DNA of 64,000 nucleotides, taken from positions 18,681 to 82,680 of the IMG/VR virus record IMGVR_UViG_3300027983_000009, one strand, 5' to 3'. Source of the DNA: a virus. The stretch's first letter is position 1. Each line of letters begins with the position of its first letter. Under the pieces are notes generated by a model. The model made no database searches and was not told the origin of the DNA. It worked only from the letters and a program-made list of their open reading frames with translations. The translations under genes were made by a program, and so were the position numbers. Shown piece by piece: positions 16,461 to 61,383 of this stretch.

Positions 16461-16494
16461 GCAGGTGGCGGACAAAAAGAGAAGGGAGCGATAA

Positions 16495-16755: not shown

Positions 16756-16774
16756 CAGGAAGCAGGAAGGTAAA

Positions 16775-17071
16775 ATGCGCAGCTTAAAACTAGTAGGCTA
16801 CAGCTTAGGCTACGATCCAAGTTACGGCAACGGCAATGGCAATGGCTACGGCTATGGCAACGGCCACGGCAACAGCAACGGCTGCGACTACGGTAGCGGC
16901 TACGGTACCGGCAGCTGTTCCGGTTACGGCAACGGTTACAGCTATGGCAACCAATACGGCTCCGGCTCAGGCCCCGGCTCTGGCTTCGGGAACGGTTACA
17001 ACGGCTACAGCAACGGCGACGGCGGCGGTTACGGCGACACCACCATCTCAACGACTACCAGAAGACGGTAG
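16775..17071 (+). CDS. Gly/Tyr/Asn-rich low-complexity protein, array copy 2, 98 aa
   Basis: The ATG follows CAGGAAGGTAAA, the same leader sequence used by the following copies. It starts MRSLKLVGYSLGYDPSYGNG and ends TTISTTTRRR. The SLKLVG N-terminal block matches copies 5 and 6, and SVKLVG in copy 4. The core contains two Cys (NGCDYGSGYGTGSCSG). It sits 19 nt after copy 1. Confidence 0.75.
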   Translation: MRSLKLVGYSLGYDPSYGNGNGNGYGYGNGHGNSNGCDYGSGYGTGSCSGYGNGYSYGNQYGSGSGPGSGFGNGYNGYSNGDGGGYGDTTISTTTRRR

Positions 17072-17091
17072 CAGAAAGCAGGAAGGTAAAA

Positions 17092-17388
17092 ATGAGTAGT
17101 GTAAAACCAGTAGGTGGCGGTATTCGTTACGGTAGCGGACAAGGTTACGGCGCCGGTTACAGCTTCGTCAACGGTAACGGCCACGGCTTCGGCTTCGGCA
17201 ACAGCTGCAACCGCGGTACCGGCAATGGTTACATTAGCGGCCGCAGCTTCAGCAACGGCTACGGCAGCGGCTACAGTAACGGCGACGGCGACGGTTATGG
17301 CGACGGCAACGAGCGAGGCGGCCACAGTTACGGCGACGGCTACGGCTATGGCAACGGCACAGTCTCAACAGTTACCAGAAGACGGTAG
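17092..17388 (+). CDS. Gly-rich low-complexity protein, array copy 3, 98 aa
   Basis: CAGGAAGGTAAAA precedes the ATG. The N-terminus is MSSVKPVGGGIRYG, with a core of GYG, GFG and GDG units, and the end is TVSTVTRRR. It has charged residues (GDGNERGGHSYGDG) that the neighbours lack. The spacing of 20 nt and the repeated leader indicate tandem duplication of a unit of about 320 nt. Confidence 0.75.
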   Translation: MSSVKPVGGGIRYGSGQGYGAGYSFVNGNGHGFGFGNSCNRGTGNGYISGRSFSNGYGSGYSNGDGDGYGDGNERGGHSYGDGYGYGNGTVSTVTRRR

Positions 17389-17408
17389 CAGGAAGCAGAG
17401 AGGTAAAA

Positions 17409-17735
17409 ATGAGCAGTGTAAAACTAGTAGGTGGCGGCCTCCGTTACGGCGGAGGCCGCAGTTCCGGGCAGAACAGTGGCTGTGGTAGCGGCTGTGGCTA
17501 CGGTGACAGCTACGGCTGTGCCAGCGGCAGCGGTAGTGGCAGTGGTTACGGCAGCTACGGCAGCGACGGCGGCGGAGGCTACGGCGAAGGCTACTGCAAC
17601 GGCAGCGGCGCTGGCAACGGCGCCGGTTACCGTGGAGGAAACGGCGGCGGCTACGGTAACGGTACCGACAACAGCTTCGGCAACGGCTTCGGTCATGGCA
17701 TCAGCACAATCTCAACAGCCACCAGAAGACGTTAA
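17409..17735 (+). CDS. Gly-rich low-complexity protein, array copy 4, 108 aa
   Basis: CAGAGAGGTAAAA precedes the ATG. The protein starts MSSVKLVGGGLRYGGG and ends TISTATRRR. It is the longest copy and has fewer Tyr and more Ser and Gly in the middle, with three Cys (CGSGCGYG, YGCASG). The opposite strand and other frames also stay open because of the repetitive GGC codons; those are not genes. Confidence 0.75.
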   Translation: MSSVKLVGGGLRYGGGRSSGQNSGCGSGCGYGDSYGCASGSGSGSGYGSYGSDGGGGYGEGYCNGSGAGNGAGYRGGNGGGYGNGTDNSFGNGFGHGISTISTATRRR

Positions 17736-17755
17736 TAGGAAGCAGGAAGGTAAAA

Positions 17756-18043
17756 ATGAGCAGCTTAAAACTAGTAGGTAGCGGCCACGGCCTGGGTTAC
17801 GGCTTCGGCAACGGCTTCGGATTCGGATACGGTTACAGCACCGGATACGGTAACGGCTTCGGCTTCGGCTTTGGCTTCGGCAACAACGGTCGATACGGCA
17901 GCACCAACGGCTCCGGCTCCGGTTCTGGCACTGGCTCCGGCGACTGCGACAGCTACAGCAGCAACGGCAACGGCTACAGCAGGAACGGCTTCGGCAACGG
18001 CAACGGTAACGGCACAGTGTCGACCTCTACCAGAAGACGATAA
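17756..18043 (+). CDS. Gly/Phe-rich low-complexity protein, array copy 5, 95 aa
   Basis: CAGGAAGGTAAAA precedes the ATG. It starts MSSLKLVGSGHGLGYGFG, the core has many GFG units where other copies have GYG, and the end is TVSTSTRRR. It is the last copy with the intact TRRR end. The following 115 nt hold an inverted repeat (CGGTTAT/ATAACCG near 18070) and an imperfect hairpin near 18098-18120 that may stop or attenuate transcription. Confidence 0.75.
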   Translation: MSSLKLVGSGHGLGYGFGNGFGFGYGYSTGYGNGFGFGFGFGNNGRYGSTNGSGSGSGTGSGDCDSYSSNGNGYSRNGFGNGNGNGTVSTSTRRR

Positions 18044-18158
18044 TGTGTAGCAGGGTGTAAAGGGTGTAATCGGTTATTGATAACCGAGCTCATAGAGAGC
18101 TGACTCATTGTGAGGCAGCGACAGTAAGTGGTAAGCAATAATCAGAAAAAGAAACAGA

Positions 18159-18482
18159 ATGATCGATCAGACAGTAGTGATCAACGGTGTTAAGTATGTC
18201 CGAGAAGACTCAGTTCCAGTACCACGACCGACTGGAAGCAGGGCTGTAGTTGTGGTGGATCGCGGGTGGATCTTCGCTGGGGATGCTCGGCGGGAGGACG
18301 GCAGGATCTTCCTGAGCAGAGCGATCCTTGTCTTCAAATGGGAAGAAGTTGGGTTCGACGGGATGCTCTCAAATCCGCTGTCGACTAAAGTATTCCTGCG
18401 ACCGCTGCAGAATGATGTCGAGATCCCGGCAGGGTCGGAGATTTGCTCCGTTCCGGTATCGGAAAACTGGGGGCTGAAGTGA
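18159..18482 (+). CDS. GWIFAG-type small protein, 107 aa
   Basis: The pattern VVVVDRGWIFAGDARREDGRIFL, then FKWEEVGFDGML, then a final PVSENWGL resembles small uncharacterised phage proteins (the DUF6948 group is my closest guess) that read as one compact beta-rich domain. The stop overlaps the GTG start of Gly-rich copy 6, so the two are translationally coupled. In my recollection this kind of protein occurs beside Gly-rich genes in other genomes; that needs checking. Confidence 0.5.
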   Translation: MIDQTVVINGVKYVREDSVPVPRPTGSRAVVVVDRGWIFAGDARREDGRIFLSRAILVFKWEEVGFDGMLSNPLSTKVFLRPLQNDVEIPAGSEICSVPVSENWGLK

Positions 18483-18688
18483 GCCCAGCCCCGAGCGGCA
18501 ACACCTTGAAACTTGTAGGCTACAGCTTAGGCCACTGTTACGGCGCCGGCTACGGTTACGGCAGCGGCAACAGCTACGGCTATGGCTACGGCTATGGCAG
18601 CGGCTATGGCAGCGGATTCGGCAGCGTCTATGCCAGCGGTGACGGTTTCGGCAACGACAGGCAATCAAACAGGAGGACTCAGTGGTAG
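18479..18688 (+). CDS. Gly/Tyr-rich protein, array copy 6 with a divergent end, 69 aa
   Basis: A GTG start (GTGA overlap with the previous stop). The product reads VSPAPSGNTLKLVGYSLGH, then GYGYGSGNSYGYGYGYG-like units, and ends FGNDRQSNRRTQW instead of STxTRRR, so the conserved tail is lost or replaced. The next gene starts inside its last codons. Confidence 0.65.
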   Translation: MSPAPSGNTLKLVGYSLGHCYGAGYGYGSGNSYGYGYGYGSGYGSGFGSVYASGDGFGNDRQSNRRTQW

Positions 18689-24739: not shown

Positions 24740-24761
24740 AGTGGTGAGTATGTTTGGTTAT

Positions 24762-24866
24762 TCTGCAGAAATGAAGCCGCTGCAGAGGCATGCCTACCAC
24801 TGTACGCTGAACTTGAGGCAGGTCAACTTCACAGGTAAAAAATTGTGTAACAGCACCACGGAATTA
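24762..24866 (+). repeat. About 100-nt structured repeat (R100), copy 1
   Basis: Three near-identical copies occur at 24762, 42539 and 43811. The 5-prime end has CTGCAG-AAATGAAGCCG-CTGCAG (an 11-nt loop between CTGCAG boxes), then GCATGCC, then a part ending CACAGGTAAAAAATTGTGTAA, in which CACA and TGTG may pair. In this copy a reading frame runs through into the next gene, but in the other copies stops follow early, so conservation is not coding. It lies in the leader of the gene at 24897. Confidence 0.75.
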
Positions 24867-24896
24867 CGAGATAACGAGAAACAGAGGGGACTAGAC

Positions 24897-25211
24897 ATGC
24901 AGATTTTTGGATCAAAACTCTGGCGGTTCTTTGGCGGAGAGAGGATTGAGGATGGGTTCAGACAGCTGTCCGACAGCATTATCAGTAACCGCAAGTTGAT
25001 TTCAGAACTGCGCACAGAGATCCTGTTGTTGCAGCGGAGAGTGTGGGCATTAGAATCGCACACTATTGAGGAGTCCGTGGCAGAGTGCGAGAAGAAGCTT
25101 GCGTCGTTTGAGGCGAGTGTAATAGCGTGGGCACCGATAGCACCAGATGAGCCGGACGCGCCGGATGTGGCAGTTGAGCCGGACGCGCCGGATGTGGCAG
25201 TTGAGCCGTGA
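24897..25211 (+). CDS. Coiled-coil protein with a PDAPDVAVE repeat tail, 104 aa
   Basis: The ATG at 24897 follows GAGGGGA; the open frame before it is the R100 repeat. The first 70 residues form a coiled coil (WRFFGGERIEDGFRQLSDS, then SELRTEILLLQRRVWAL), with a helix containing CEKKLASFEAS. The tail has two copies of a 9-residue PDAPDVAVE unit encoded by a perfect 27-nt DNA repeat. Confidence 0.65.
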   Translation: MQIFGSKLWRFFGGERIEDGFRQLSDSIISNRKLISELRTEILLLQRRVWALESHTIEESVAECEKKLASFEASVIAWAPIAPDEPDAPDVAVEPDAPDVAVEP

Positions 25212-28468: not shown

Positions 28469-28666
28469 ATGCATATCGATGAGGTGCAGGCAGACGTGGA
28501 TGACGTCACCAAAGCTGCAAATGAGCTTGTAGAGCACCTGACCACCGCGGAGTGTTGTGAGACTATAGAGGACCTTCAGGTGAACCTCGAGAATGCTGTG
28601 CGTACAGCTGGCGAGATTCAGGCAGCCGCAAAGAGGCTGCATAAATTGGCAATGCGACTACGGTAG
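28469..28666 (+). CDS. Small helical protein, 65 aa
   Basis: The ATG at 28469 follows GGAGAAG; a GTG at 28445 is also open. The product (MHIDEVQADVDDVTKAANEL) is all-helical, two amphipathic helices, with an Arg/Lys-rich end (KRLHKLAMRLR). Unknown. Confidence 0.55.
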   Translation: MHIDEVQADVDDVTKAANELVEHLTTAECCETIEDLQVNLENAVRTAGEIQAAAKRLHKLAMRLR

Positions 28667-28690
28667 TCGCGAGCGTGATAGTGTTTAGTA

Positions 28691-28718
28691 TGCCTACTTG
28701 GGGGCTTCGTATCCAAGC
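28691..28718 (+). promoter_or_regulatory. Type A leader hairpin
   Basis: CTTGG and CCAAG around the 11-nt loop GGGCTTCGTAT. It shares TATGCCTACTTGGGGGCTTCG with the copy at 20022, 8 kb away. Located 29 nt before the next start. Confidence 0.75.
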
Positions 28719-28746
28719 TGCTCCGGTTGAAAGGGATGTGGCTACT

Positions 28747-29046
28747 ATGTCTAAATCATCTGAAGCTCTACAGCGTGCGTTCATAGCAGACCCCGGAGCT
28801 ATCCGGTCGCTGATGTTGAACAGAGCGCCGTGCAATGCGGCTCTGGTTGACCATGAATTTGTTCCGGTTGAAAGAGATATGTGTATGCCGGGGGCGCATT
28901 TCACAATCAGCGCTATTGGGCTGGTCAACGCAGTACTTGCAGCGAACGGCCTGCCGCTGGTTGCAGGTATGTGGGAGGATGGCGAAAAGGTAGGGTGTGA
29001 CAATTTTGTAGGGTTCTGTGAGTGCACACCAACTGTAGAGATCTAA
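28747..29046 (+). CDS. Hypothetical protein, 99 aa
   Basis: The ATG at 28747 follows AAAGGGA; the frame open before it is the hairpin element. It has SEALQRAFIADPGAIRSLML and IGLVNAVLAANGLPLVAGMWEDG, a compact alpha/beta pattern with three Cys near the end. No family known. Confidence 0.55.
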   Translation: MSKSSEALQRAFIADPGAIRSLMLNRAPCNAALVDHEFVPVERDMCMPGAHFTISAIGLVNAVLAANGLPLVAGMWEDGEKVGCDNFVGFCECTPTVEI

Positions 29047-29933: not shown

Positions 29934-29958
29934 TTCATTATTAATAACCAACTTTACA

Positions 29959-29986
29959 TGCCGTTGCAGAGGCTTCGTGGCTGCGA
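29959..29986 (+). promoter_or_regulatory. Type A leader hairpin
   Basis: TTGCAG and CTGCGA (one G-U) enclose AGGCTTCGTGG (11 nt). It lies 16 nt before the start at 30003. Confidence 0.7.
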
Positions 29987-30002
29987 GAGAGGGTAGTGAA
30001 CA

Positions 30003-30998: not shown

Positions 30999-31016
30999 CA
31001 ACCCAGCCAATGTGTA

Positions 31017-31046
31017 GTGCCGCTGCAGAGGCGTAATATCTGCAGA
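31017..31046 (+). promoter_or_regulatory. Type A leader hairpin upstream of the Cas12m-like gene
   Basis: CTGCAG/CTGCAG around the 11-nt loop AGGCGTAATAT (31023-31045). It is 84 nt before the Cas12m-like start. Confidence 0.75.
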
Positions 31047-31133
31047 GCCCAGAATATGGTGACAACCCTGCCGACGTTCGGCGGGGTTGGCAGCAAGCAG
31101 CAAACATCAAACAGAGAGCAGGAATCAGAATGA
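31017..31133 (+). CDS. Possible leader peptide overlapping the Cas12m-like start, 38 aa
   Basis: A GTG-initiated frame (MPLQRRNICRAQNMVTTLPT at its start) crosses both hairpins and ends with TGA overlapping the ATG of the next gene (ATGA). It could couple translation or act as a leader. There is no clear ribosome binding site and no homology, so it may be fortuitous. Confidence 0.35.
   Translation: MPLQRRNICRAQNMVTTLPTFGGVGSKQQTSNREQESE
31063..31089 (+). ncRNA. Strong hairpin upstream of the Cas12m-like gene
   Basis: CAACCCTGCCGA pairs with TCGGCGGGGTTG over 12 bp with one G-U, around the loop CGT. No T-run follows, so this is not a typical terminator. It could be an attenuator or a stabilised part of a small RNA. 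A guide-RNA role is only a hypothesis: nothing shows repeats or a spacer. Confidence 0.5.
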
Positions 31134-33121
31134 CTGAAGTAACACGTAACTGGTGTTATGGAGCCAAGGCGCCAACGTTGAATGCCGACATGGTGGACCA
31201 CCAGCTTTGGCTGGCCCACAATTACAAGAACCGGCACATCGAGCTGGAGCGGAACAGGCGAATTACTGCGGATGCGTTCGCCAGATCTCTTCACCCACAG
31301 TTCGAACTGGATGCCGCAGAATATGAGGTTGCAGACGCTGCAGTGGATGCAGCGTTCGACCTACTTAAAGCTGAGCGGATTGCGGCACGGAGCCGTGTAG
31401 ACGCGACGCCGGCGGTTGCTGCAGCAATCAGGGAAGCTAAGCGGATCCGGTGTGATGTAGGTGCTCGCAAGAAAATAAGCTCGAGAGCTGCATACAAGCT
31501 GGTCAATGAGTCGCAGGAGCCGTACAAAGAGAGAGCTGCGGCTGAGACAGTTATTCCGGAGGGGACAACCCCTGCAGCTCGTGATCAGCTGATTTATCGC
31601 AATAGGTTGGCGATGATGGAGGCGGCTGGCGTAGATGCCGGCGCCAAGGTGATGTACGACGCCAGACTCGCAGCCCGCGAAGAGTTCCGCGATCTTGGGC
31701 TGAATTGGGGCACCTACCTGACGGTGGAGGCTGCGACAAAGGACTACCACAAAGGAGCACCCCCGGAATTTCGCAGATTTGATGGTCGCGGGTCCATCGG
31801 TGTGCAGATACAGGTAGGCGGAGGATTAACGTATGCTGCTGCTGTTGCCTGCGCGAATACGTTTTTGAGAATTCAGTTGCCACCACTATCTGAGCGGTTG
31901 GCAACAACAGGCTCGGACAGCGGCGTGCAGGCTCACGGGGTGGCGTGGTTAAGGATCGGCTCAGTCGGACACCAACCGATCTGGGCGACAGTCCCTTTTG
32001 TGTACAGTCGCGAGATTCCGCACGATGCTGTAATCAAGTGGGCGTACCTGGACAGGGTTCGTGTCGGCCAGAAGTATCACTGGAAGCTGCGGCTTAACCT
32101 GAAGACTTCGCAGGTCAGGAGGCCGGCAGAGAACAGAGATATGGTTGCAGCCCATCTCGGGTACAGGCTGGTAGGCGAAGAAATCCGTGTGCTGACAACC
32201 TTGGATACCAGCGGAGAAGTAAGCACCCTCTCCATCTCGCGGGAAGAGGTGGCAGCGTTCGGTTACATGCGCAAGCTGGAGTCGATCCGAGAGAATGCCT
32301 CGAATCTGGTGACAGCAGCTCTCGGTCGCTGGTCGCGTGTAGCTAATATCTCAGAGTGGTTCCAGGAACATTCGGACAACATCTCAAGGTGGCGAGGCCC
32401 TGAGAGGATGAGTCGACTTGCCCGGTCTTGGCGTGATAACAGGTTCGACGCAGACCAATCTTCGTCTGCAGAGATTCCTGAGTTTTTGGAGTGGGCGCAG
32501 CTCAAGCTGGAGGAGTACCGGAGACAGCCGCACTATCGGCCGACCAACCCGGATGATTTGACTACAGTTTTCGGGGTGGTAGAGTTCTGGAGGAAGTACG
32601 ACAAGCACCTGTGTGAATGGTCGGCGAATCAGTCGCGGAAATGTATCGCAAGGCGTGAGCAGCTCTACAGGACATATGCTGCTAATTTGGCCAGGCGGTA
32701 CAACGCGTTGGCGATTCCGGATGTTGACTGGGCCGAGCTTCGAGAAAAGCCAGCGGTCGACGAGACAGATGCGCAGAGCAAGGAATTGCGGAGATTGGCA
32801 TCTATCGTCTCACCGGGCAGACTATCGGCAATCCTGGTCGAGGTGTTCAGCGACCGAGCTCACAAGACAGCCGCTCAGGGGATGACTATCATCTGCAATG
32901 CGTGCGGTAAGGTCCATGAGTTCGACAAGAAGCAGCGTGTGACAACTTGTGTCCACTGCGGGGCAACGTGGGACCAGGATGAGAATGCTGTCCGCAACAC
33001 GTTGGCAAATGGCCTGGTAAAGCGGGCGAGGGTAGAGTCCAGAAACGGGGCACCAGATCCGGACGCCCCTGTGAAAGTGCGAGCGGTCAGACGGGACCGG
33101 AGGAGACCTGCTACGACGTAG
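31130..33121 (+). CDS. Cas12m/C2c4-like RNA-guided effector with substituted RuvC residues, 663 aa
   Basis: The layout matches type V-M (V-U1) proteins: an N-terminal helix block (YGAKAPTLNADMVDHQLWLA), a WED-like part with LGLNWGTYLTVEAA and FRRFDGRGSIGVQIQ (residues 189-230), then RuvC and zinc ribbon. RuvC-I reads VAAHLGYR with His342 where Asp is expected (codon CAT, one base from GAT). RuvC-II reads LAIPDVDWAELREKP with Pro530 where Glu is expected. RuvC-III DQDENAVRN (Asp617) is intact, and the ribbon CNACG...CVHCG (C589, C592, C607, C610) is complete. Cas12m binds DNA to block transcription; here cleavage seems lost altogether. No Cas1/Cas2 or array is adjacent. It may repress host or rival phage genes. 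Confidence 0.85.
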   Translation: MTEVTRNWCYGAKAPTLNADMVDHQLWLAHNYKNRHIELERNRRITADAFARSLHPQFELDAAEYEVADAAVDAAFDLLKAERIAARSRVDATPAVAAAIREAKRIRCDVGARKKISSRAAYKLVNESQEPYKERAAAETVIPEGTTPAARDQLIYRNRLAMMEAAGVDAGAKVMYDARLAAREEFRDLGLNWGTYLTVEAATKDYHKGAPPEFRRFDGRGSIGVQIQVGGGLTYAAAVACANTFLRIQLPPLSERLATTGSDSGVQAHGVAWLRIGSVGHQPIWATVPFVYSREIPHDAVIKWAYLDRVRVGQKYHWKLRLNLKTSQVRRPAENRDMVAAHLGYRLVGEEIRVLTTLDTSGEVSTLSISREEVAAFGYMRKLESIRENASNLVTAALGRWSRVANISEWFQEHSDNISRWRGPERMSRLARSWRDNRFDADQSSSAEIPEFLEWAQLKLEEYRRQPHYRPTNPDDLTTVFGVVEFWRKYDKHLCEWSANQSRKCIARREQLYRTYAANLARRYNALAIPDVDWAELREKPAVDETDAQSKELRRLASIVSPGRLSAILVEVFSDRAHKTAAQGMTIICNACGKVHEFDKKQRVTTCVHCGATWDQDENAVRNTLANGLVKRARVESRNGAPDPDAPVKVRAVRRDRRRPATT

Positions 33122-33143
33122 TCGGTTTGCAGTGCACGTGCCA

Positions 33144-33166
33144 GCTCTGCGGCTTCATGGCAGAGC
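33144..33166 (+). promoter_or_regulatory. Leader hairpin after the Cas12m-like gene
   Basis: GCTCTGC and GCAGAGC pair perfectly (7 bp) around the 9-nt loop GGCTTCATG, between the stop at 33121 and the start at 33211. Confidence 0.7.
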
Positions 33167-33210
33167 AAAGAGATGAAGAGCGAATATATGCCTCACACAG
33201 GAGATAGCTA

Positions 33211-34724: not shown

Positions 34725-34779
34725 TTCTTTAATGTTCTTCAACCCGTTAAGTGCCTACGCAGGGGCGACATATCTGCGA
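34725..34779 (+). promoter_or_regulatory. Type A leader hairpin with an extended flank
   Basis: CGCAG/CTGCG around GGGCGACATAT (11 nt). The 5-prime flank (TCTTTAATGTTCTTCAACC) is repeated almost exactly at 36270-36325. It is 17 nt before the start at 34796. Confidence 0.75.
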
Positions 34780-34795
34780 ATAGAAAGAGGTCAAT

Positions 34796-34978
34796 ATGCA
34801 GTACGTGGAATACATCGTAGCGATTCTGTTCACAGCGGCCCCGGGTTTGGCTGCTGTGTGCGCCTTTTGTGGCAACACAGTTGACGCAGGAGAGAAGCAG
34901 CAGCGGAGAGCTGGTGCCAGGTGTGTAGCAGCTCGCTGCGCAGCACGAGCTAAGTACCTGAGAACGCTGGATGAGTGA
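34796..34978 (+). CDS. Small membrane protein with a CxxC, 60 aa
   Basis: ATG after AAAGAGG. Residues 3-23 (YVEYIVAILFTAAPGLAAVC) are hydrophobic, followed by CAFCGN and a basic part RRAGARCVAARCAARAKY. A single-pass or signal-bearing protein. Confidence 0.55.
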   Translation: MQYVEYIVAILFTAAPGLAAVCAFCGNTVDAGEKQQRRAGARCVAARCAARAKYLRTLDE

Positions 34979-34991
34979 GCCTGAGCAATGC

Positions 34992-35021
34992 ATCGCCCAC
35001 GCAGAGGCGTTATATCTGCGA
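34992..35021 (+). promoter_or_regulatory. Type A leader hairpin
   Basis: CGCAG/CTGCG around AGGCGTTATAT (11 nt). Its flanks, starting with ATGAGTGAGCC at 34971, match those of the copy at 36729, 1.7 kb away. It is 47 nt before the next start. Confidence 0.75.
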
Positions 35022-35067
35022 CGTTGGCAAATAGCAGCAAACTAAAACCCACAACGGAGTATGCAAG

Positions 35068-35343
35068 ATGCAACTAAGCACAATTAAGTACACCGACAAA
35101 GTAACCTTAACAGACCACGAAGTGACAGGTGCGGCAGCACGGAGGTGCCGCAGGCGATTCATGTTGAGTGTGAAAGAGGTTGCAGTAGCGGCTGGCTTAT
35201 CACCCGTCTACCTCGCACAGCTGGAGGCGGGAGATATAGTCTGGACGCAGCCTGTGTTGGACGCCGTTACTAATGCGATCTACAGCCAACATAACAGCTC
35301 GCTCCCGCGTAAGCGCTTTGAACATCTATCCGGACAGTACTGA
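35068..35343 (+). CDS. Small HTH (XRE-like) protein, 91 aa
   Basis: ATG after AACGGAG. The segment RRRFMLSVKEVAVAAGLSPV, then YLAQLEAGDIVW at residues 28-60 fits a helix-turn-helix of the Cro/CI type. A basic arm (RRCRRRF) precedes it. A putative transcription regulator of nearby phage genes. Confidence 0.65.
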   Translation: MQLSTIKYTDKVTLTDHEVTGAAARRCRRRFMLSVKEVAVAAGLSPVYLAQLEAGDIVWTQPVLDAVTNAIYSQHNSSLPRKRFEHLSGQY

Positions 35344-35352
35344 CCGCGGATT

Positions 35353-35370
35353 ACATTCCACAAATAGGAG
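35353..35370 (+). promoter_or_regulatory. Repeated ribosome-binding leader ACATTCCACAAATAGGAG
   Basis: An 18-nt sequence, containing TAGGAG, identical to 35777-35794. Both precede starts of unrelated genes (35379 and 35802). Likely a copied translation leader. Confidence 0.6.
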
Positions 35371-35378
35371 TACCAGAT

Positions 35379-35708
35379 ATGCGAGTAGATGTTAGTGAGC
35401 TCAGTGAGCAACCAAGCGGCGGCACGGCCGCACCACGTGTAGAGGTTATGCCCGTCTTCAGCGGCGAGTCGTTCATCAGAACGCTGTCCTATCCGGTGAT
35501 TGTTGAGGCATGGAAGAAGAAAAACAGCGGTAGAGGTAAGCGAGCCTGGCTCGTGGAATTCACCGAGAAGGAGCGAGACCTCCTGTGTAAATGGCACGCC
35601 AGGTTCCACGACTGGCACTTGGTCTCCGGCACACCGGGTCGGGTTGTAATGAAATTGACAACGCTCGAGCTGCTGCAGCGAGCTGTTAACTTCTTTGCGG
35701 CTATTTGA
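35379..35708 (+). CDS. Hypothetical protein, 109 aa
   Basis: ATG after TAGGAG. It contains VEVMPVFSGESFIRTLSYPV and KRAWLVEFTEKERDLLCKWH, then TLELLQRAVNFFAAI, a compact alpha/beta pattern. Unknown. Confidence 0.55.
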   Translation: MRVDVSELSEQPSGGTAAPRVEVMPVFSGESFIRTLSYPVIVEAWKKKNSGRGKRAWLVEFTEKERDLLCKWHARFHDWHLVSGTPGRVVMKLTTLELLQRAVNFFAAI

Positions 35709-35726
35709 ATCGCACACCAGCAACCT

Positions 35727-35772
35727 CCTCCGTTATGCATAACGGAGGCTTCGTATCTGCGGACGGCCGCAG
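35727..35772 (+). promoter_or_regulatory. 22-bp palindrome plus a type A-like hairpin
   Basis: A perfect 22-bp palindrome (35727-35748) with half-site CCTCCGTTATG, then CTTCGTAT, then CTGCGG/CCGCAG (35757-35772) with loop ACGG. It is 19 nt after one gene and 29 nt before the TTG start. It could be a protein-binding operator in DNA or a long hairpin in RNA. Confidence 0.7.
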
Positions 35773-35776
35773 CATC

Positions 35777-35794
35777 ACATTCCACAAATAGGAG
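35777..35794 (+). promoter_or_regulatory. Repeated ribosome-binding leader, second copy
   Basis: Identical 18-nt ACATTCCACAAATAGGAG, here serving the TTG start at 35802 with 7-nt spacing. Confidence 0.6.
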
Positions 35795-35801
35795 ACATAA
35801 A

Positions 35802-36101
35802 TTGAAACCGTACACAGTGATCGGGCATTATAAGGACACCGGGTTGTTGTATTGCAGCATAAACCTCCACGCCGAGACCCCGGATGCTGCCGCTGCGTTG
35901 GTGGCAGAGCTGTACCCCGATGAGGACATTGCTATCAGCGCAGTGATTGCGGGGGAGCACGAGAGTGTGCTGGAGGGTGAATACCTGTTAGACACATCAA
36001 CCATAAGATCGTGGGGTACAGACGATGAAGGAAACGGTCCCAGTGTTTCAGCTGTTGTGCGGGTGCCCGACAACAGCAACAACGAAGTACAGAGCGGGTA
36101 G
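35802..36101 (+). CDS. Hypothetical protein with TTG start, 99 aa
   Basis: TTG behind TAGGAG. It starts (M)KPYTVIGHYKDTGLLYCSIN, a beta-alpha fold, with TPDAAAALVAELYPDEDIAI. An acidic middle follows. Unknown. It overlaps the next gene by 77 nt. Confidence 0.5.
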   Translation: MKPYTVIGHYKDTGLLYCSINLHAETPDAAAALVAELYPDEDIAISAVIAGEHESVLEGEYLLDTSTIRSWGTDDEGNGPSVSAVVRVPDNSNNEVQSG

Positions 36102-36258
36102 CAGGTGCTATCTGGACTTTATCTTCAGCGGACTTGTCCCAGCTAAAGTCCTGCGTGTGCTTGTATCCGGTCGCGGGTTCGTTAGCACAGAGGGTAGAGT
36201 CGAGGTTGAAGTCACAGAGTCCCGTGGTCCGTATAAAAAGGGTGAAGTTTCAAAGTAG
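36025..36258 (+). CDS. RGPYKKGE-type small protein, 77 aa
   Basis: ATG at 36025, overlapping the previous gene; no strong ribosome binding site. Residues 24-75 (YRAGSRCYLDFIFSGLVPAK, then VEVEVTESRGPYKKGE) resemble a family of small phage proteins ending in TRGPYRRGE, unknown function. Start uncertain (GTG at 36043 is an option). Confidence 0.5.
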   Translation: MKETVPVFQLLCGCPTTATTKYRAGSRCYLDFIFSGLVPAKVLRVLVSGRGFVSTEGRVEVEVTESRGPYKKGEVSK

Positions 36259-36269
36259 GTCAGCTGATG

Positions 36270-36325
36270 CTTCTTTAATGTTCTTCAACCAGTTAAGTGC
36301 CTACGCAGGGGCGTCATATCTGCGT
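36270..36325 (+). promoter_or_regulatory. Type A leader hairpin with extended flank, second copy
   Basis: CGCAG/CTGCG around GGGCGTCATAT. The 5-prime flank matches 34725-34750 at almost every position. A small 26-codon frame starts at the conserved ATG in the flank but is not conserved as a protein end. Confidence 0.75.
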
Positions 36326-36420
36326 ATTGGAGCCGGCCAGCGTGGTCGTGCCGCCTAAGCACGTTATTCGTAGGCAGTATTCCACCAGTATCAACACAGC
36401 GTATGAATGGGAGAAAGACG

Positions 36421-36693
36421 ATGACAGAAAATAATCCAGGTGCGTGTGGCGGGGGTCAGTGCAGCCCGAAACGCGTACCGTACAAACCACCGCAAGCAAC
36501 GGTTATTAAGCGGCACACATTTTTCACAGCTGAAGAACTGGCGACGGAATTGGAAATGGATGCAGTCGAGATGCCGGGTAGGCAGCCCACCGTATTGTAT
36601 CTGGCACAAGACGTACAGAGTGGTGTGGCTGGTGAGGCGGTTGTAGCGTGGGTTCTTTGCGACGCGGTTAAACTATTCGGAAGACGGTCCTAG
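36421..36693 (+). CDS. Hypothetical protein, 90 aa
   Basis: The ATG at 36421 is behind GGGAGAAAG; an ATG at 36403 precedes it. It contains a Gly-rich start (ENNPGACGGGQCSPKRVPYK), then HTFFTAEELATELEMDAVEM, and VLYLAQDVQSG. Unknown. Confidence 0.55.
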   Translation: MTENNPGACGGGQCSPKRVPYKPPQATVIKRHTFFTAEELATELEMDAVEMPGRQPTVLYLAQDVQSGVAGEAVVAWVLCDAVKLFGRRS

Positions 36694-36728
36694 TGTTTCA
36701 GCACTAAATGAGTGAGCCCGAGAAACGT

Positions 36729-36758
36729 AGTGCCCCCGCAGAGGCGTTATATCTGCGA
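36729..36758 (+). promoter_or_regulatory. Type A leader hairpin
   Basis: CGCAG/CTGCG around AGGCGTTATAT. It ends 13 nt before the next ATG, with GGGAGG between. The shared flank with 34992 includes an ATGAGTGAGCC start. Confidence 0.75.
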
Positions 36759-36770
36759 AGGGAGGCGCTG

Positions 36771-41288: not shown

Positions 41289-41331
41289 ACCGTTGTGGTC
41301 TTGCAGTCGTTTTTGTTTTTTTGGCTGTTAC

Positions 41332-41401
41332 GCCTCTGCAGAGGCTTCGTGTCTGCAGCTGAAGAAATGAAGCCTCTGCAGAGGCTTTGTGTCTGCAGAG
41401 G
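41332..41401 (+). promoter_or_regulatory. Two tandem type A leader hairpins
   Basis: First: CTGCAG/CTGCAG around AGGCTTCGTGT (41336-41358). Second: a 9-bp perfect stem CCTCTGCAG/CTGCAGAGG around AGGCTTTGTGT (41373-41401), the strongest copy in the window. Located between the stop at 41288 and the start at 41463. Confidence 0.85.
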
Positions 41402-42194: not shown

Positions 42195-42509
42195 ATGAGC
42201 GTCAAATACATCCGATACACAGACGAGAAAACAGAGCCGGTAGCTCGCAAACCTATCAGCGTAGGTAAAGACCCGGCAGCACAGGGTTTCCTGAGGATGT
42301 TTGGTCAGCCGACCAAGCTACCAGGTCAGGACGACGAGGGTTACGGCGGCAAGATCACCACAGACAAGATGGTCTACGTCAACCGTAGTGATACTAGCAC
42401 CAATGGCAACGCTAGAGGCGGTCGCTGGTACCGCGTGTATGCAACTTGCTACGGCAATGCGACATCCTCTTGGGTGCTCATAGGAAAAACTCGGTACCAC
42501 TTACGTTGA
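42195..42509 (+). CDS. Hypothetical protein, 104 aa
   Basis: ATG 7 nt after CAGGAG. Its C-terminal part (WYRVYATCYGNATSSWVLIG, then KTRYHLR) is a beta sheet. The DNA for this end and the following 20 nt is duplicated at 42765-42840. Confidence 0.55.
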   Translation: MSVKYIRYTDEKTEPVARKPISVGKDPAAQGFLRMFGQPTKLPGQDDEGYGGKITTDKMVYVNRSDTSTNGNARGGRWYRVYATCYGNATSSWVLIGKTRYHLR

Positions 42510-42538
42510 CCGCAGAGGCAGCAAACAGGACGTAGCGA

Positions 42539-42642
42539 TCTGCAGAAATGAAGCCTCTGCAGGGGCATGACTAGCACTGTACGCTGAACCTGTGGCGAGT
42601 CAACTGCACAGGTAAAAAATTGTGTAACAGCACCACGGAATT
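42539..42642 (+). repeat. R100 repeat, copy 2
   Basis: Same sequence as 24762-24866 with few changes. It begins CTGCAG-AAATGAAGCCT-CTGCAG, and the part after GCATGACTAGCACTGTACGC is conserved to AATTGTGTAACAGCACCACGG. A TAG near its start shows the element is not a coding repeat. Confidence 0.8.
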
Positions 42643-42674
42643 TGAAGAGACAGCAAACAGAAAGCAGGAAAATC

Positions 42675-42824
42675 ATGAAAGACCAGGACTACTACAAAGA
42701 GCTCTACCCAGTGATCCTAGACCGTTGGTTTTTACGCCTCTGCAGGGGCTTCGTGTCTGCAGCTTACGGCAATGCGACATCCTCTTGGGTGCTCATTGGA
42801 AACATTCAGTACCACTTACGTTGA
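42675..42824 (+). pseudogene. Chimeric gene fragment joined through a hairpin element, 49 aa
   Basis: The start (MKDQDYYKEL, with GAAAGCAGGAAAATC leader) matches the gene at 43000. The middle (LRLCRGFVSA) is a type A hairpin (42734-42763: CTGCAG/CTGCAG around GGGCTTCGTGT). The end (YGNATSSWVLIG, then HLR) matches the C-terminus of the gene at 42195. It has a ribosome binding site, so a short hybrid protein may be made. Confidence 0.7.
42734..42763 (+). promoter_or_regulatory. Type A hairpin inside the chimeric fragment
   Basis: CTGCAG/CTGCAG around GGGCTTCGTGT, exactly at the joint between the two gene fragments. Confidence 0.75.
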
Positions 42825-42841
42825 CCGCAGAGGCAGCAACA

Positions 42842-43003
42842 ATGGTTACGGGAAATAAGGTGACGGTTAAAGAAGAGCACAAGAAGACCAAACAGCCAGC
42901 AGCTGGATACAGTCGACCACTTGGGGAGTCTTGTGCTGAGTGCGGGTTAATATTTGGACAGCACCGCCATAATTGCAGTAAACAGAAAGCAGGAAAATCA
43001 TGA
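42842..43003 (+). CDS. Small zinc-binding protein, 53 aa
   Basis: ATG after GCAGCA (weak site). The end has CAECG, then HRHNC, a C-x2-C...H-x-H-x2-C pattern. Its stop overlaps the next ATG (ATGA). Confidence 0.45.
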   Translation: MVTGNKVTVKEEHKKTKQPAAGYSRPLGESCAECGLIFGQHRHNCSKQKAGKS

Positions 43004-43626
43004 AAGACTGGGACTACTACACCGAAACGGACGTTCGATTTTACGGATTCAAGGAAGAGAGTACTCTGTTTAGTGAGCGATTGCAGGCGATAGACGCAGC
43101 AAAACTAACAGCAGAGGAGCGAGAGACGGCCAAGAGAGAGCTGAAGCCGACGATTCGCCGAGAGTTTCGGGAATTAAATGCTCCGCACAGGGCGGCATTA
43201 AGACGCAAGCAAGACGAGTTCTGGGCAGACGCCCGGGAAGATTTGGGGTATACCGAGACCTTGTCGAAGGAAGCTGTAGCAGCCATGGAGAGCGAAGCCT
43301 GGGAGCAGGAGCACTCTGATGGTTTCTCTGAAGTGTACATCGCACTGCAAGACTTGTGGGCTGTTGTTGAGGCGGCAGCGGCAGCGGCAGTTAAAGTCGC
43401 TACCGTGCCGGCTGAGACGGCAACCAAAAAACCGGAAAAGAATACGAGACAGATCCGCCAATTGCAAGACCTGACAACAGCGGTGATGATCTCGCTGAAT
43501 CACAGTTCGTCGCCTAGGGTCGTTGGGATTGCTAGGGACACTGCTAGCAACACGCCGAATGTACTGCTCGCTACAGCTCAGGATGTACCTATCCGTATTA
43601 CTGTAGATCTGCAGGTGGGGCTCTAA
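43000..43626 (+). CDS. Helical hypothetical protein, 208 aa
   Basis: ATG behind CAGGAAAATC. A long charged helix (AERETAKRELKPTIRREFRE), then an Ala-rich helix and a beta part at the end (RVVGIARDTASNTPNVLLAT; VPIRITVDLQVGL). Unknown. The leader and first 10 codons were copied into the chimera at 42648-42700. Confidence 0.6.
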   Translation: MKDWDYYTETDVRFYGFKEESTLFSERLQAIDAAKLTAEERETAKRELKPTIRREFRELNAPHRAALRRKQDEFWADAREDLGYTETLSKEAVAAMESEAWEQEHSDGFSEVYIALQDLWAVVEAAAAAAVKVATVPAETATKKPEKNTRQIRQLQDLTTAVMISLNHSSSPRVVGIARDTASNTPNVLLATAQDVPIRITVDLQVGL

Positions 43627-43627
43627 G

Positions 43628-43846
43628 ATGGCCAGATTCACAATCGCAGAGCTGAAGGCTGGTACGTGCAGCATGACAGAGCTGGCTCGCGTGATAGATT
43701 TGAAATTGAGTAGATGGCCGGGGAATTGCGACTTTGTGGCGACGAAGCTGGTAGAGTACGGCCAATTACCGGGCCGCGTAGTGCGAGGTCACTACCATGG
43801 CCGAATATCATCTGCAGAAATGAAGCCTCTGCAGAGGCATGCCTAG
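43628..43846 (+). pseudogene. GHYxG-type phage protein truncated by R100, 72 aa
   Basis: The sequence FTIAELKAGTC, then RWPGNCDFVATKLVEYGQLP and RVVRGHYHG matches an uncharacterised phage family whose members continue with a HGWI...PDGxIxDPTRW region. Here the frame runs into R100 copy 3 after GHYHG, ends ISSAEMKPLQRHA, and the expected second half is missing. Likely truncated by insertion of the repeat. Confidence 0.6.
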
Positions 43847-43899
43847 CACTGTACGCTGAACTTGAGGCGAGTCAACTGCACAGGTAAAAAATTGTGTAA
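43811..43899 (+). repeat. R100 repeat, copy 3, disrupting a gene
   Basis: CTGCAG-AAATGAAGCCT-CTGCAG at the start, as in copies 1 and 2. It is identical to copy 2 over long stretches (GGGCATGAC vs AGGCATGCC differ). It diverges after AATTGTGTAA. Located at the broken 3-prime end of the gene at 43628. Confidence 0.8.
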
Positions 43900-43947
43900 A
43901 ATCCCCCTAAACGCCTCAATAGAGGCTGCTCGAACGAAAGGATAACT

Positions 43948-57281: not shown

Positions 57282-58025
57282 ATGCAGTGTATTACCGTAG
57301 CAGTAGGGTACGCAGACATACTAGCAATTACATTACCAAGGAATCGACAGCACTTCAGCTGCATGCACCTTGTGACCTCAGAGGACACCCAAGACGACGC
57401 GGTAGTCGAGCTAGGTAAGCAGTTCAACTGTAGCGTGACCCGCACACCCGCCTTTTATCGTGACGGTGCATCCTTCAATAAGTTTCTGGCTGTAAATGCG
57501 GCGCTGGCAGCGGTGCGACCACGCGGCTGGTTGTGTTTCATGGATGCCGACGTTGTGTTACCGCCAACGCTACCTGTGAACGATTTCGATGCAGGTAACA
57601 TCTACAGCCCGCCACGCCGAATGCTTGTAGATACTTTTGCTGAGATACCGCCGCACACAGAGTGGGGCAGGTTACCACTCGGCCCGCCTGCGCCGCGTGG
57701 TAAAATTATGGCCGGATACACGCAAATTTTCCACACAGCGGACGTTGTGCTGCAGGCGTTACCGTGGTACGGGTCGGACTACAAGAATGCATCTGACGGG
57801 GATACGCAGTTTGCAAGGCGGTGGCCCAAAGCAAACCGGCTAAGACCAGCTTTTGACGTTTGCCATCTTGGGCGGGACTCTGTAAACTGGTGCGGCCGCG
57901 TCGCAGAATATGCGGACGGTAGCTTACCGCCGCAGGCAGGTGAGCGACTGATTCAGGTGCAGGCTTTTCTTGCTGGTAGGCGAGCGGCAGCCCGCAAAGC
58001 ACCTGAGAAGCCAAAGCGTAAGTAG
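57282..58025 (+). CDS. GT-A fold glycosyltransferase-like protein 2, 247 aa
   Basis: ATG at 57282 after CCGGAGCAG. Similar to the gene before: YRDGASFNKFLAVNAALAAV, then WLCFMDADVVLPPTLP (DxD) and CHLGRDSVNWCGR. A tandem duplicate with divergence. It ends with a basic tail (RAAARKAPEKPKRK). A small hairpin follows. Confidence 0.7.
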   Translation: MQCITVAVGYADILAITLPRNRQHFSCMHLVTSEDTQDDAVVELGKQFNCSVTRTPAFYRDGASFNKFLAVNAALAAVRPRGWLCFMDADVVLPPTLPVNDFDAGNIYSPPRRMLVDTFAEIPPHTEWGRLPLGPPAPRGKIMAGYTQIFHTADVVLQALPWYGSDYKNASDGDTQFARRWPKANRLRPAFDVCHLGRDSVNWCGRVAEYADGSLPPQAGERLIQVQAFLAGRRAAARKAPEKPKRK

Positions 58026-58026
58026 A

Positions 58027-58048
58027 AGATCGACAACGTAGTCGATCT
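58027..58048 (+). terminator. Perfect 8-bp hairpin after the glycosyltransferase pair
   Basis: AGATCGAC/GTCGATCT around AACGTA, directly after the stop. No T-run, so termination is uncertain; possibly a stabilising end. Confidence 0.45.
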
Positions 58049-58099
58049 CAGTGCGACAGTCCGGTGGTTATGCGTAGCCACCCAGCAGGAGTAGAGAAG

Positions 58100-58684
58100 A
58101 TGGAAGAGAGTACAACAACCAGCGTCGTCCCGTACAGTGAATTCGTACGAGCACTGTCTAAACCTGGTGAGGTTATGCTGGCGGAGATGACGCCGGAAAA
58201 GCTACACCTGTGGCACATGTCGAGTGCGTTGCTGGATGAGGTGGCCGAGCTTGCCGAGTGCATGGTAGACTACGACCACGGCAAGAAGACAAACGCGATT
58301 GAAGAGTTTGGCGATATGCGATTCTTTTTGCAGGGTATCTGCAACGTGATCGACGAAAACCTCAACTATACGTTTGCAGCCTGCCACGGGGTGCGAATCC
58401 GTAACAGTGATACGACTGAGACACTGATGCTGCTCATTGCTGCGGGTAAGCTGTTTGATGCAGTGAAACGCTATGTTATTTACAACGGGCAACTGGATAG
58501 AGTCAAACTCGTTGACTCGCTGGTGGAGGTTGTCCGCAGCATTACGCGGCTGTATCTGGTTGTCGAGGTGAGTGATGAGATCGTAGAGCGATCTAACCGC
58601 GTCAAGCTGGGTTTGCGGTACGCGAAGCTGACCTACGGCGACCAGGCCGCCCAGCAGCGAGCAGATAAACCTGCTGGCGAGTAA
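58100..58684 (+). CDS. MazG-like nucleotide pyrophosphohydrolase, 194 aa
   Basis: ATG at 58100 behind CAGGAG. LLDEVAELAECMVDYDHGKK, then NAIEEFGDMRFFLQGI carries the ExxE...ExxD metal motif of the MazG/all-alpha NTP-PPase family. It hydrolyses nucleotides (perhaps dUTP, ppGpp-like or modified NTPs) in the phage cycle. The C-terminal half repeats a similar helical fold with less clear motifs. Confidence 0.7.
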   Translation: MEESTTTSVVPYSEFVRALSKPGEVMLAEMTPEKLHLWHMSSALLDEVAELAECMVDYDHGKKTNAIEEFGDMRFFLQGICNVIDENLNYTFAACHGVRIRNSDTTETLMLLIAAGKLFDAVKRYVIYNGQLDRVKLVDSLVEVVRSITRLYLVVEVSDEIVERSNRVKLGLRYAKLTYGDQAAQQRADKPAGE

Positions 58685-58728
58685 CTCACTGACCGGATCT
58701 GGAATATCACACCGTGGGACGATAGGTA

Positions 58729-59502
58729 ATGGCTCATACGAAGTTTGTTTTGCAGAGTATACACAGATCCGGTGCCGGGATGTTGATGAGTGCGTTAAAC
58801 GGGCACCCCCAGTGTGCGATGCACGGGTGCCCGTTTAACGACTACAGCGAAGACCTCACTGTAGCAACCGCATGGAAGTCGCTGTTTGACGAGACTACAG
58901 AAGTCTGTGAGTACGCAGACCCAGCAGAGAATACAGCTTCCGGGTTTACCAGCTACAGATTCCCACCCGCTGCCGCTGGCGGTCGGTCTGTCAGGTGGGA
59001 GTTGACCAACTCGCTGTGGCAGTACCTGACAGATAAAGGTGCGGATACGGCAAAGGTTATTAGGCTGCACAGGAAAGACGCGATCGCCCGCGCGATCAGT
59101 GAATTCTTCGCAATCGTTACAGACATACGATCTGCACGGCTCTGTACAGACGCACTGAGGCTCTACAAAAGCAACAAACTTAAACCACGGGCCGTACCGC
59201 CGTACCTGTTTCGCACCCTTCTGGATGACTGGCTGCTCGAGCGATCACTACAATTCGGCCGGGCTGAGGTTCTTGAAGTAACCTACGAACAGTTGGAGCA
59301 GGACTGGTCTGGCAGCATTGCGACTATTCAGGAATACCTCGGGCTGCCGTGGTCTGACCTGCAACCTACGCTTGCCAAGCTCAGTGTCCCGCAACCGCAC
59401 ACCTTGGTAACTAACTGGGAAGAGATAGTACTGGCGTTCAGGAATACAGGGTACGAGCACCTGTTCGTAGACTATGCTATTAAGTGTAAAGAGGGAAGGT
59501 AG
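58729..59502 (+). CDS. Sulfotransferase-type protein 1, 257 aa
   Basis: ATG after GACGATAGG. The 5-prime phosphosulfate-binding loop appears as SIHRSGAGMLMSALNGHP (residues 10-27; usual pattern PRSGTxLLxxLLxxHP), and LHRKDAIARAISEFFA and VTYEQLEQDWSGSIATIQEY fit the 3-prime phosphate and dimer regions. It is likely to transfer sulfate from PAPS to a carbohydrate. Adjacent glycosyltransferases fit that. Confidence 0.75.
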   Translation: MAHTKFVLQSIHRSGAGMLMSALNGHPQCAMHGCPFNDYSEDLTVATAWKSLFDETTEVCEYADPAENTASGFTSYRFPPAAAGGRSVRWELTNSLWQYLTDKGADTAKVIRLHRKDAIARAISEFFAIVTDIRSARLCTDALRLYKSNKLKPRAVPPYLFRTLLDDWLLERSLQFGRAEVLEVTYEQLEQDWSGSIATIQEYLGLPWSDLQPTLAKLSVPQPHTLVTNWEEIVLAFRNTGYEHLFVDYAIKCKEGR

Positions 59503-59504
59503 CT

Positions 59505-60209
59505 GTGTTTGTTCTGCGAGGCTACACCCGCTCAGGTACAGAGATGCTGCGGTCCGCCCTGGATCAGCACCCTGACATAATATGCCACGGCCCAATATTT
59601 ACAGATAAGAACAAAGACGAGTTAGCCAAAGGTGACCCTCAGCGGCTACTCCTGGCTAAGAACCTTCGACCAACTGACGGGTTCGTGATGGGTGCCGGGC
59701 CTCCGCGTGGTGATGATGTAGTGCGGCTGGCCGTAAGCGAAATGTGGGGGTACGTAGCTTCCCAGAGTATGGCTGTAGTAGCTATCCAGCGAAGAGATAT
59801 ACTGAGGATGGTTGTATCTGACGCTATACAGCGTACTGGTCGGCCCCGCACGGTCAAGTTAAGCGACAAGCCGAACAAGACTAAACAGACACTGCTGATA
59901 AGACCGGAACAACTATTGCGAGCGGCCGCTGCAGCTCAGCAAGTTGCGGATATAACGGCAAGCCAGTTCCCCTGGGCTAAAGTGGTCTACTATGAAGATA
60001 TGCTTGCAAACTGGAATACCAAGATAGATGAGATCCTGTCTTACATAGGTGCGACTCGTATGTATCTCGGTGCCATGACCCGCCGACAGGAGGTCCGCAA
60101 GATCCGAAAAATAGTCCAGAATTACGAAGAGCTTAAAACAGAGCTGTACGGCTCGAGGCCAGAGTTGTTTGATATAGCGGAGCACACAGATGGTATCTTC
60201 AGTTACTAA
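59505..60209 (+). CDS. Sulfotransferase-type protein 2, 234 aa
   Basis: GTG start, 2 nt after the previous stop. The PSB-like loop GYTRSGTEMLRSALDQHP is intact; IQRRDILRMVVSDAIQ and VYYEDMLANWNTKIDEILSY match the other two. It is a second copy of the enzyme family; sequence differences suggest different acceptors. It overlaps the third by 20 nt. Confidence 0.75.
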   Translation: MFVLRGYTRSGTEMLRSALDQHPDIICHGPIFTDKNKDELAKGDPQRLLLAKNLRPTDGFVMGAGPPRGDDVVRLAVSEMWGYVASQSMAVVAIQRRDILRMVVSDAIQRTGRPRTVKLSDKPNKTKQTLLIRPEQLLRAAAAAQQVADITASQFPWAKVVYYEDMLANWNTKIDEILSYIGATRMYLGAMTRRQEVRKIRKIVQNYEELKTELYGSRPELFDIAEHTDGIFSY

Positions 60210-61383
60210 ACAGGTTAAAATACAACTTAAAACAACAACACCAGCATCACCTATGCTGGACAGGTACCATTTCAGTTATGTGGCTGGGTGGGTTAGACGT
60301 GTGCTGGTGACAGACCACACGGACATAGAGTTAATAGACGCACTGCTGAGCTATTCCTGCGCGGTGACAGTTATTATACCACCATCTGCAACCCTACAGA
60401 GTCTGCAGGCTGTTGCGACCGCCGCAGGCAGACCGCTGGCGGCAACTGTCGTAGTGTGTGACTTACGGGCATTCTTGTCGGCCTGCGAGCTGCAGCAATT
60501 CTTTGCTATATTTGCGACCCAGGAGACGGTTGTCGAGCTTCCCGGCTTGGCAGACCTGGCGAGGAGAGCAATAGCGTGGAACGGCACACTCCATGTGACA
60601 GGTATGAAACATGACGAGCTAACTGCCGGATCTCTACAGTGTATATCCACAGCAAGCTCGCCGATTGTGTCACTCAGAAAGGATGTAGGCTGGTTGTTGG
60701 CTACGTACCCACGTTGCGGGACCCACATGCTACTATCGGCACTGCAGCAACACTCAAAACTACAGGTTGGTACCGAGCTATTTAACCACAACACAGCGAC
60801 AGGGTCCCACAGGTTTAACACCGTTAGGCAGTCGCTGGAGGTAGGGTGGCCCAAGGCGAGCAGCGGTTTTGCAGTACACAGTTCGATAGAGGGGCCGCAG
60901 CACGCCCTCAGCATGCAGGAGACAATGCAGGGCACAGCTAATTTCTGGGAGACTATACCGGACTACACGCCGACGATACTGTTACAGCGGGATAATCTGC
61001 TGGAGCGGTATGTCTCACAAAAAGTAGCCATGGCTACACGGTCGTGGAACAGCACCGACAGCGGTAAGACGGCCAGCTCGTACGCCTCAGTGTATGTGGG
61101 CTTGGGTGAGCTAGCTGCAGACATAGCGTACGTGCGACGCTGCTACGACAAAGCCGCCGCTTATTTCAAGTACTCGCTGGTTGTGCGATATGAGGATATG
61201 TGCGAGGATCCTGTAAGAGAGTTGCGGCGGGCGCAGGAATTCCTTCGAGTAGACTGGGAGGATGTGCGGCCGCTAACCGTGAAACTGACAGCAAACACTC
61301 TCGAGATTGTAGAGAACTACACACAAGTGAAAGCTTGGTGTCGTAGAAATGGGTATGGTAATTTTCTTGTAGAGGAACAGTAA
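60190..61383 (+). CDS. Sulfotransferase-type protein 3 with an N-terminal domain, 397 aa
   Basis: ATG overlapping the previous gene. Residues 160-397 contain TYPRCGTHMLLSALQQHSKL (PSB loop with Arg-Cys-Gly), LQRDNLLERYVSQKVA and VVRYEDMCEDPVRELRRAQE, a typical sulfotransferase. Residues 1-155 form an extra part (VLVTDHTDIELIDALLSY; VVVCDLRAFLSACEL) of unknown type, possibly an acceptor-binding or regulatory domain. The stop overlaps the next ATG (TAATG). Confidence 0.75.
   Translation: MVSSVTKQVKIQLKTTTPASPMLDRYHFSYVAGWVRRVLVTDHTDIELIDALLSYSCAVTVIIPPSATLQSLQAVATAAGRPLAATVVVCDLRAFLSACELQQFFAIFATQETVVELPGLADLARRAIAWNGTLHVTGMKHDELTAGSLQCISTASSPIVSLRKDVGWLLATYPRCGTHMLLSALQQHSKLQVGTELFNHNTATGSHRFNTVRQSLEVGWPKASSGFAVHSSIEGPQHALSMQETMQGTANFWETIPDYTPTILLQRDNLLERYVSQKVAMATRSWNSTDSGKTASSYASVYVGLGELAADIAYVRRCYDKAAAYFKYSLVVRYEDMCEDPVRELRRAQEFLRVDWEDVRPLTVKLTANTLEIVENYTQVKAWCRRNGYGNFLVEEQ

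Follow-up and report, generated by a model that had tools for sequence, protein, structure and literature searches.

Duplicated gene pieces around a hairpin at 42–43 kb

The window, the whole stretch of 64,000 nucleotides analysed here, comes from an IMG/VR virus record of 82.7 kb (G000). At the locus it carries two genes, referred to as X and Y, and the following features in and between them:

42195–42509, + strand: gene X (ORF, 104 aa), the original whose 3' end was copied; protospacer at 42449–42465, TTG motif at 42446–42448
42539–42642, − strand: cassette of the D7 family (described below), with TTGACT at 42603–42598, TACAGT at 42581–42576, repeat at 42572–42539 and guide from 42538 downwards
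42651–42696, + strand: duplicated leader and start of gene Y (93% to 42976–43021)
42730–42763, + strand: 'type A hairpin', a predicted Cas12m-type repeat with stem GCC/GGC and pseudoknot TGCAGG/TCTGCA
42764–42780, + strand: putative guide TTACGGCAATGCGACAT, directly after the repeat 42730–42763
42765–42839, + strand: duplicated 3' end of gene X (direct repeat of 42450–42524)
42842–43003, + strand: small CxxC...HxxxxC zinc-ribbon-like ORF (53 aa, unnamed in Pfam), overlapping the start of gene Y
43000–43626, + strand: gene Y (ORF, 208 aa), source of the copied leader and start (42976–43021)

Gene Y gives a weak match to PHROG 10980, a family of unknown function, and no relatives of it were found in viral_contigs. 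Distant relatives of X, encoded at two loci (L004 and L005), have the C-terminal motif WYRVYATC in common with it.

A preliminary description of this region, made from the sequence alone, had reported duplicated gene pieces that meet at the hairpin, and this is borne out. The segment 42450–42524 recurs at 42765–42839 (75 nt, 95% identity) and 42651–42696 recurs at 42976–43021 (46 nt, 93% identity); both direct repeats were obtained with two methods, and their local alignment scores of 130 and 77 lie far above the shuffled maxima of 22 and 25. The pieces had been named correctly, with only the outer ends 42532, 42971 and 43023 placed a few bases too wide. The hairpin sits between the duplicated pieces, and its surroundings (42725–42764) are 92.5% identical to 41321–41360. 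The pieces lie 315 and 325 bp apart with their order preserved, and the stretches between them bear no relation to each other; an intact simple tandem duplication was rejected for this lack of homology in the middle parts.

The open frame reported at 42675 is present, running from ATG 42675 (or TTG 42642) to 42824: MKDQDYYKELYPVILDRWFLRLCRGFVSAAYGNATSSWVLIGNIQYHLR. It had been taken as two genes joined exactly through the hairpin. The joint itself is real, in that recombination or duplication put a copy of the 3' end of X directly 3' of the hairpin. A functional fused gene is doubtful, since K/R residues common to X and its relatives are lost in the copy; for the same reason, X is the original. 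The first 32 nt of the copy are identical to X and are followed by four differences, three of which change amino acids, so that the copy does not appear to be kept as a protein. As no forward frame is closed by the repeat, the 'fused ORF' of 49 aa probably arose as a by-product.

Only G000 spans 42–43 kb. A search for the X joint yielded no second record that contains it, and the joint may be an assembly artefact. As a separate observation, a gene-leader motif (CAGTAAACAGAAAGCAGGA...ATG) recurs ahead of several genes (at 42976, 42651, 33448 and 12881) and could serve as a seed for recombination between leaders.

Repeat fold and Cas12m effector

Copies of the hairpin fit one compact H-type pseudoknot, composed of a 3-bp stem (GCC/GGC), 2 nt, a 6-bp pseudoknot helix and a 6-nt loop. 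Across 31 sites from the window phage and a near relative, the sister phage G001 (IMGVR 3300027832_000009; both records are incomplete), 96.9% of cells pair as compared with 92.4% in shuffles, and double changes affecting both sides of a pair occur in 15 cells as compared with 5.3; slid controls of this covariation test collapse. Even divergent helices still pair (CTTGGG/TCCAAG and CTCTGC/GCAGAG), and another repeat type has a CCC/GGG stem. A structure scan returned 22 sites in G000 (0.15 expected from shuffles) and 31 in G001, whose shuffles gave none; four control sequences were free of sites. The identity of the hairpin as a known RNA family was rejected, given that nothing in Rfam matched the repeat at the gathering threshold. 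The repeats do show the pseudoknot-plus-stem build of the published Cas12m2 crRNA, in which C-22 to C-17 pair with G-8 to G-3 and the pseudoknot is stacked on the stem (PMC10442227).

The genome also encodes a candidate effector for such an RNA:

31130–33121, + strand: cas12m, encoding a predicted nuclease-dead effector of 663 aa (from homology and RuvC motifs H-P-D)

This protein matches Cas12u1 in PADLOC (4e-66) and, in the PDB, Cas12m (E 3e-44) and Cas12m2 (3e-14). With an AlphaFold model of moderate quality (pLDDT 77, pTM 0.50), the top Foldseek matches are all Cas12m; TnpB is matched weakly, and the closest relatives are Cas12m proteins. No close relatives were found in viral_contigs. Aligned with other Cas12m, the RuvC-I aspartate is replaced by histidine (VAAHLGYR) and the RuvC-II glutamate by proline (LAIP), and WDQD is kept. 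Given these motifs, the protein should bind DNA without cutting it, as is typical of type V-M, where RuvC is inactive in many members. Type V-M is also devoid of adaptation genes, and Cas1 was not found in G000 or G001, both of which are incomplete records.

The repeat pattern alone, without the effector, was used as a query against 2.9 million viral contigs. All loci with multi-copy arrays found in this way (L056, L057/L069, L060, L062, L064, L067 and L071) carry Cas12m, which is encoded by the phages G012 and G013 as well. Three other V-M phages (G006, G012 and G013) have arrays together with some scattered repeats. In the sister phage, a degenerate array lies at 73.0–74.3 kb (L045:12800–14331), with at least 12 diverse repeats and spacers of about 20 nt. 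In G000, no regular array was found beside cas12m, where the repeats are irregular and scattered. From its fold and distribution, we conclude that the 'type A hairpin' is a Cas12m (type V-M) CRISPR-type repeat and is not inherently a recombination joint.

Phages are known to use solitary repeats as decoys (PMC10651486), and the scattered repeats could in principle be RNA decoys of this kind (Racr, solitary repeats) directed against a host Cas12m. We consider this very improbable, as the phage encodes an effector itself, its repeats vary, with a different sequence after each, and the sister phage has an array.

Several related loci were noted in passing. In phage Rctr197k (L102, KX853510.1, 109498–116739), a Cas12m homolog annotated as 'similar to transposase' adjoins an annotated CRISPR array, whose repeat has a fold geometry identical to that of the window repeats. 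G013 (L078–L085, IMGVR 3300032770_000005, 152.9 kb) encodes two Cas12m homologs (8784–10532 and 57340–59157) and contains 71 pseudoknot repeats, in several arrays and single copies. The window itself holds the second repeat type, with the CCC/GGG stem and an unchanged pseudoknot build, as an irregular array at 11064–11390 (also at 10110 and 37276); G001 has more units of it at 23.2–24.3 kb, with partly different spacers.

Scattered repeats and their putative guides

More than 20 lone repeats are spread over the phage genome, and a short guide-like stretch follows each of them. Beyond those listed above, they include the following, given with one empty site:

6568–6587, + strand: empty site, TTA (6568–6570) and the next 17 nt; in G001 a cassette lies between them
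7233–7581, + strand: repeats 7233–7266 and 7548–7581; the cassette 7497–7581 is the one copied in the sister phage
24762–24865, − strand: D7 cassette, in place of which G001 has another leader
28630–28736, + strand: repeat cassette with repeat 28686–28719, pseudoknot CTTGGG/TCCAAG and guide 28720–28736
29954–29987, + strand: repeat just upstream of a start codon (structure scan)
31013–31046, + strand: repeat 84 nt upstream of cas12m (structure scan)
33134–33167, + strand: repeat just past the cas12m stop, with a swapped pseudoknot helix CTCTGC/GCAGAG (structure scan)
34725–36759, + strand: four repeats (34747, 34989, 36293 and 36726) downstream of cas12m, forming two leader-sharing pairs
41326–41359 (+), 41366–41399 (+) and 41391–41358 (−): three overlapping or adjacent repeats (structure scan)
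43811–43914, − strand: D7 cassette, a D7 copy with repeat 43844–43811 and guide TGATATTCGGCCATGGT

These cassettes fall into several families, which differ in their leaders and have the scaffold in common. Copies with a common leader are alike up to the repeat end and then diverge. In the D7 family (seven copies in two phages, 21 pairs), 26–29 of 30 positions are identical upstream of the repeat and 26–28 of 28 within it, as compared with 2–10 of 20 downstream (mean 4.8 over the 21 pairs, where chance is near 5). The smallest common D7 piece comprises TTGACY and TACAGT (TATAGT in one copy) and continues to the repeat end. The two boxes form a promoter-like pair, from which an RNA would start near the repeat; this predicted layout of promoter, scaffold and private guide is as expected of a guide gene. 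At 24741–25211, the forward frame runs open through the D7 cassette, which extends the reading frame of the downstream gene; in the sister phage, both the leader and the N-terminus differ.

The preliminary description had interpreted the hairpin family as a homologous-recombination joint that shuffles genes. In its favour, the duplicated pieces do meet at the hairpin, there is a weak 12-nt similarity between the repeat end and X, and the phage encodes a UvsX/RecA-like recombinase. However, in every family whose members have a leader in common, the homology lies on one side only, breaking where the guide starts, and a recombination joint is not expected to look so; moreover, the element corresponds to a Cas12m crRNA scaffold with covariation, and its cognate effector is present in the genome. 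We therefore rejected this interpretation of the nature of the hairpin, which we regard as highly unlikely.

The sister phage offers a view of how such units may be gained. G001 contains an exact 85-bp repeat cassette, a copy of that at 7497–7581, which is absent from G000 at 6570/6571; on both sides of it the two phages align without a difference, and no target sequence was duplicated. We infer an insertion in G001, as opposed to a loss in G000. The cassette directly follows TTA and is directly followed by the sequence that it would turn into a guide. This guide thus matches the empty allele beside a TTN motif, which the filled allele has lost. The position at this PAM/protospacer boundary suggests guide gain without adaptation machinery.

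An exact insertion after TTA without target duplication, together with cassette copies at many sites, would also suit small mobile elements (IS200/IS605-like) whose end merely happens to be a repeat. Yet no Y1 transposase (TnpA) was found in the records, for which reason a TnpA-mobilized element was rejected, and there are several families with different leaders but one scaffold; such an origin of the cassettes thus seems hardly credible to us.

The comparison of the sister phages also brought up two strongly rearranged regions in the window, at 12905–15943 an ORF of 1012 aa that consists of a 12-bp repeat (QVRDQV-like) and at 16400–18650 a Gly/Ser-rich repeat region. Elsewhere, at 58729–61383, the window carries three tandem sulfotransferase-family genes (Sulfotransfer_3), which is unusual in a phage.

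Putative guides, their matches and possible function

The guide register was taken from regular arrays, where the repeat ends 3 nt past CTGC. In this register, the guide at 42764–42780 matches X at 42449 in 16 of 17 positions, with TTG adjoining (42446–42448), and the guide at 28720–28736 matches 28861–28877, in the directly downstream gene, in 15 of 17, preceded by TTT. When 22 guides were tested within 1.5 kb, these two were the best, with 16 and 15 matches; the next reached 11, and 1,320 shuffled guides did not exceed 13. Binding in type V-M depends on a PAM and is directed by a single crRNA. The matched targets carry TTG, TTT and TTA, which conform to a TTN motif assumed from MmCas12m2; this may not be the PAM of the window Cas12m, as other Cas12m recognise other motifs (PMC11013384). 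A 17/20 match of the guide at 34995 near cas12m (31086) was set aside, being without TTN. For the other 20 guides, no target beyond chance was found in the window phage or its sister, and a search of the phage collection gave just two chance-level matches (E about 7). Self-targets above the level of shuffled guides were likewise not found in G006, G012 and G013. From the lack of self-targets in these three other V-M phages, self-regulation may be special to the lineage of the window phage, or the duplication may have produced the X match by accident.

With moderate confidence, and on the strength of sequence comparisons, we read the joint as a unit of repeat and guide that belongs to a CRISPR-Cas12m (type V-M) system, encoded by the phage and predicted to be nuclease-dead, in which the guide derived from the X piece would dampen X. 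The duplication would have placed the 75-nt piece of the X 3' end beside the repeat and so made X sequence a guide. Read-through from the X region could then yield a crRNA, which Cas12m would process and use to bind X without cutting, dampening its transcription. The copy would be spared from its own silencing, because the repeat end stands in place of the TTN motif.

What speaks against a guide role is the length of the copy, which at 75 nt far exceeds that of a guide, and the match may be a by-product of the duplication. Accordingly, the repeat could be of the V-M type and the X copy a product of tandem or unequal duplication that serves as no guide, with the working guides aimed at other phages or the host. 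The order and spacing of the pieces fit a tandem duplication with replaced middles, and for V-M systems elsewhere a role in the competition between elements is assumed (PMC11656645, PMC13232261). Still, the copy begins exactly at the TTG/protospacer boundary, like the guide in G001, and the second guide, whose homology to its target of about 22 nt is about guide length, also has a TTN target in a neighbouring gene. We take this alternative seriously, but hold it to be rather unlikely.

More tentatively, the phage may use its predicted nuclease-dead Cas12m as a gene-regulation network of its own, in which the more than 20 scattered units would be guide genes, some of them silencing their neighbours. 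New guides would arise without Cas1-Cas2 whenever a cassette lands between a TTN motif and a target, the guide then matching cassette-less sisters and the carrier being protected. This wider picture is possible, though we lean against it in its full extent.

With type V-M as represented by Cas12m2 of Mycolicibacterium mucogenicum and its relatives, the system has in common the effector family, a RuvC predicted here to be inactive, the pseudoknot and stem of the crRNA and the TTN-like motif at matched targets. It differs in its single, scattered repeats in place of one regular array, in the H-P-D RuvC motifs and in the two guides that match genes of the carrier. As there is no regular array beside the effector in G000, we place it as a V-M variant, working like V-M, and not as a canonical V-M locus. 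TldR proteins, the RNA-guided repressors of phages, are nuclease-dead, as is predicted here, and expected to block transcription, but they derive from TnpB and use a single guide to a host gene, whereas here a Cas12m comes with numerous guides, of which some match genes of the phage. Viral CRISPR mini-arrays and solitary repeat units (Racr) also place single repeats in viral genomes; these rely on or block host Cas proteins, while the window phage carries its own effector. In TnpB/IS605 systems, too, the guide is the sequence next to the insertion point beside a target motif, so that empty sites are targeted; here, by contrast, no TnpA was found and the effector is a Cas12m, predicted to be inactive.

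Plasmids and some viral genomes are known to carry type V-M, with ordinary arrays silencing rivals. In a literature search covering few of the subscription journals, we met no account of single, scattered guides together with a Cas12m of a phage. If our reading is true, these scattered single guides, of which some have promoter-like boxes and two match genes of the phage itself, would represent natural CRISPR interference as a means of viral gene regulation.
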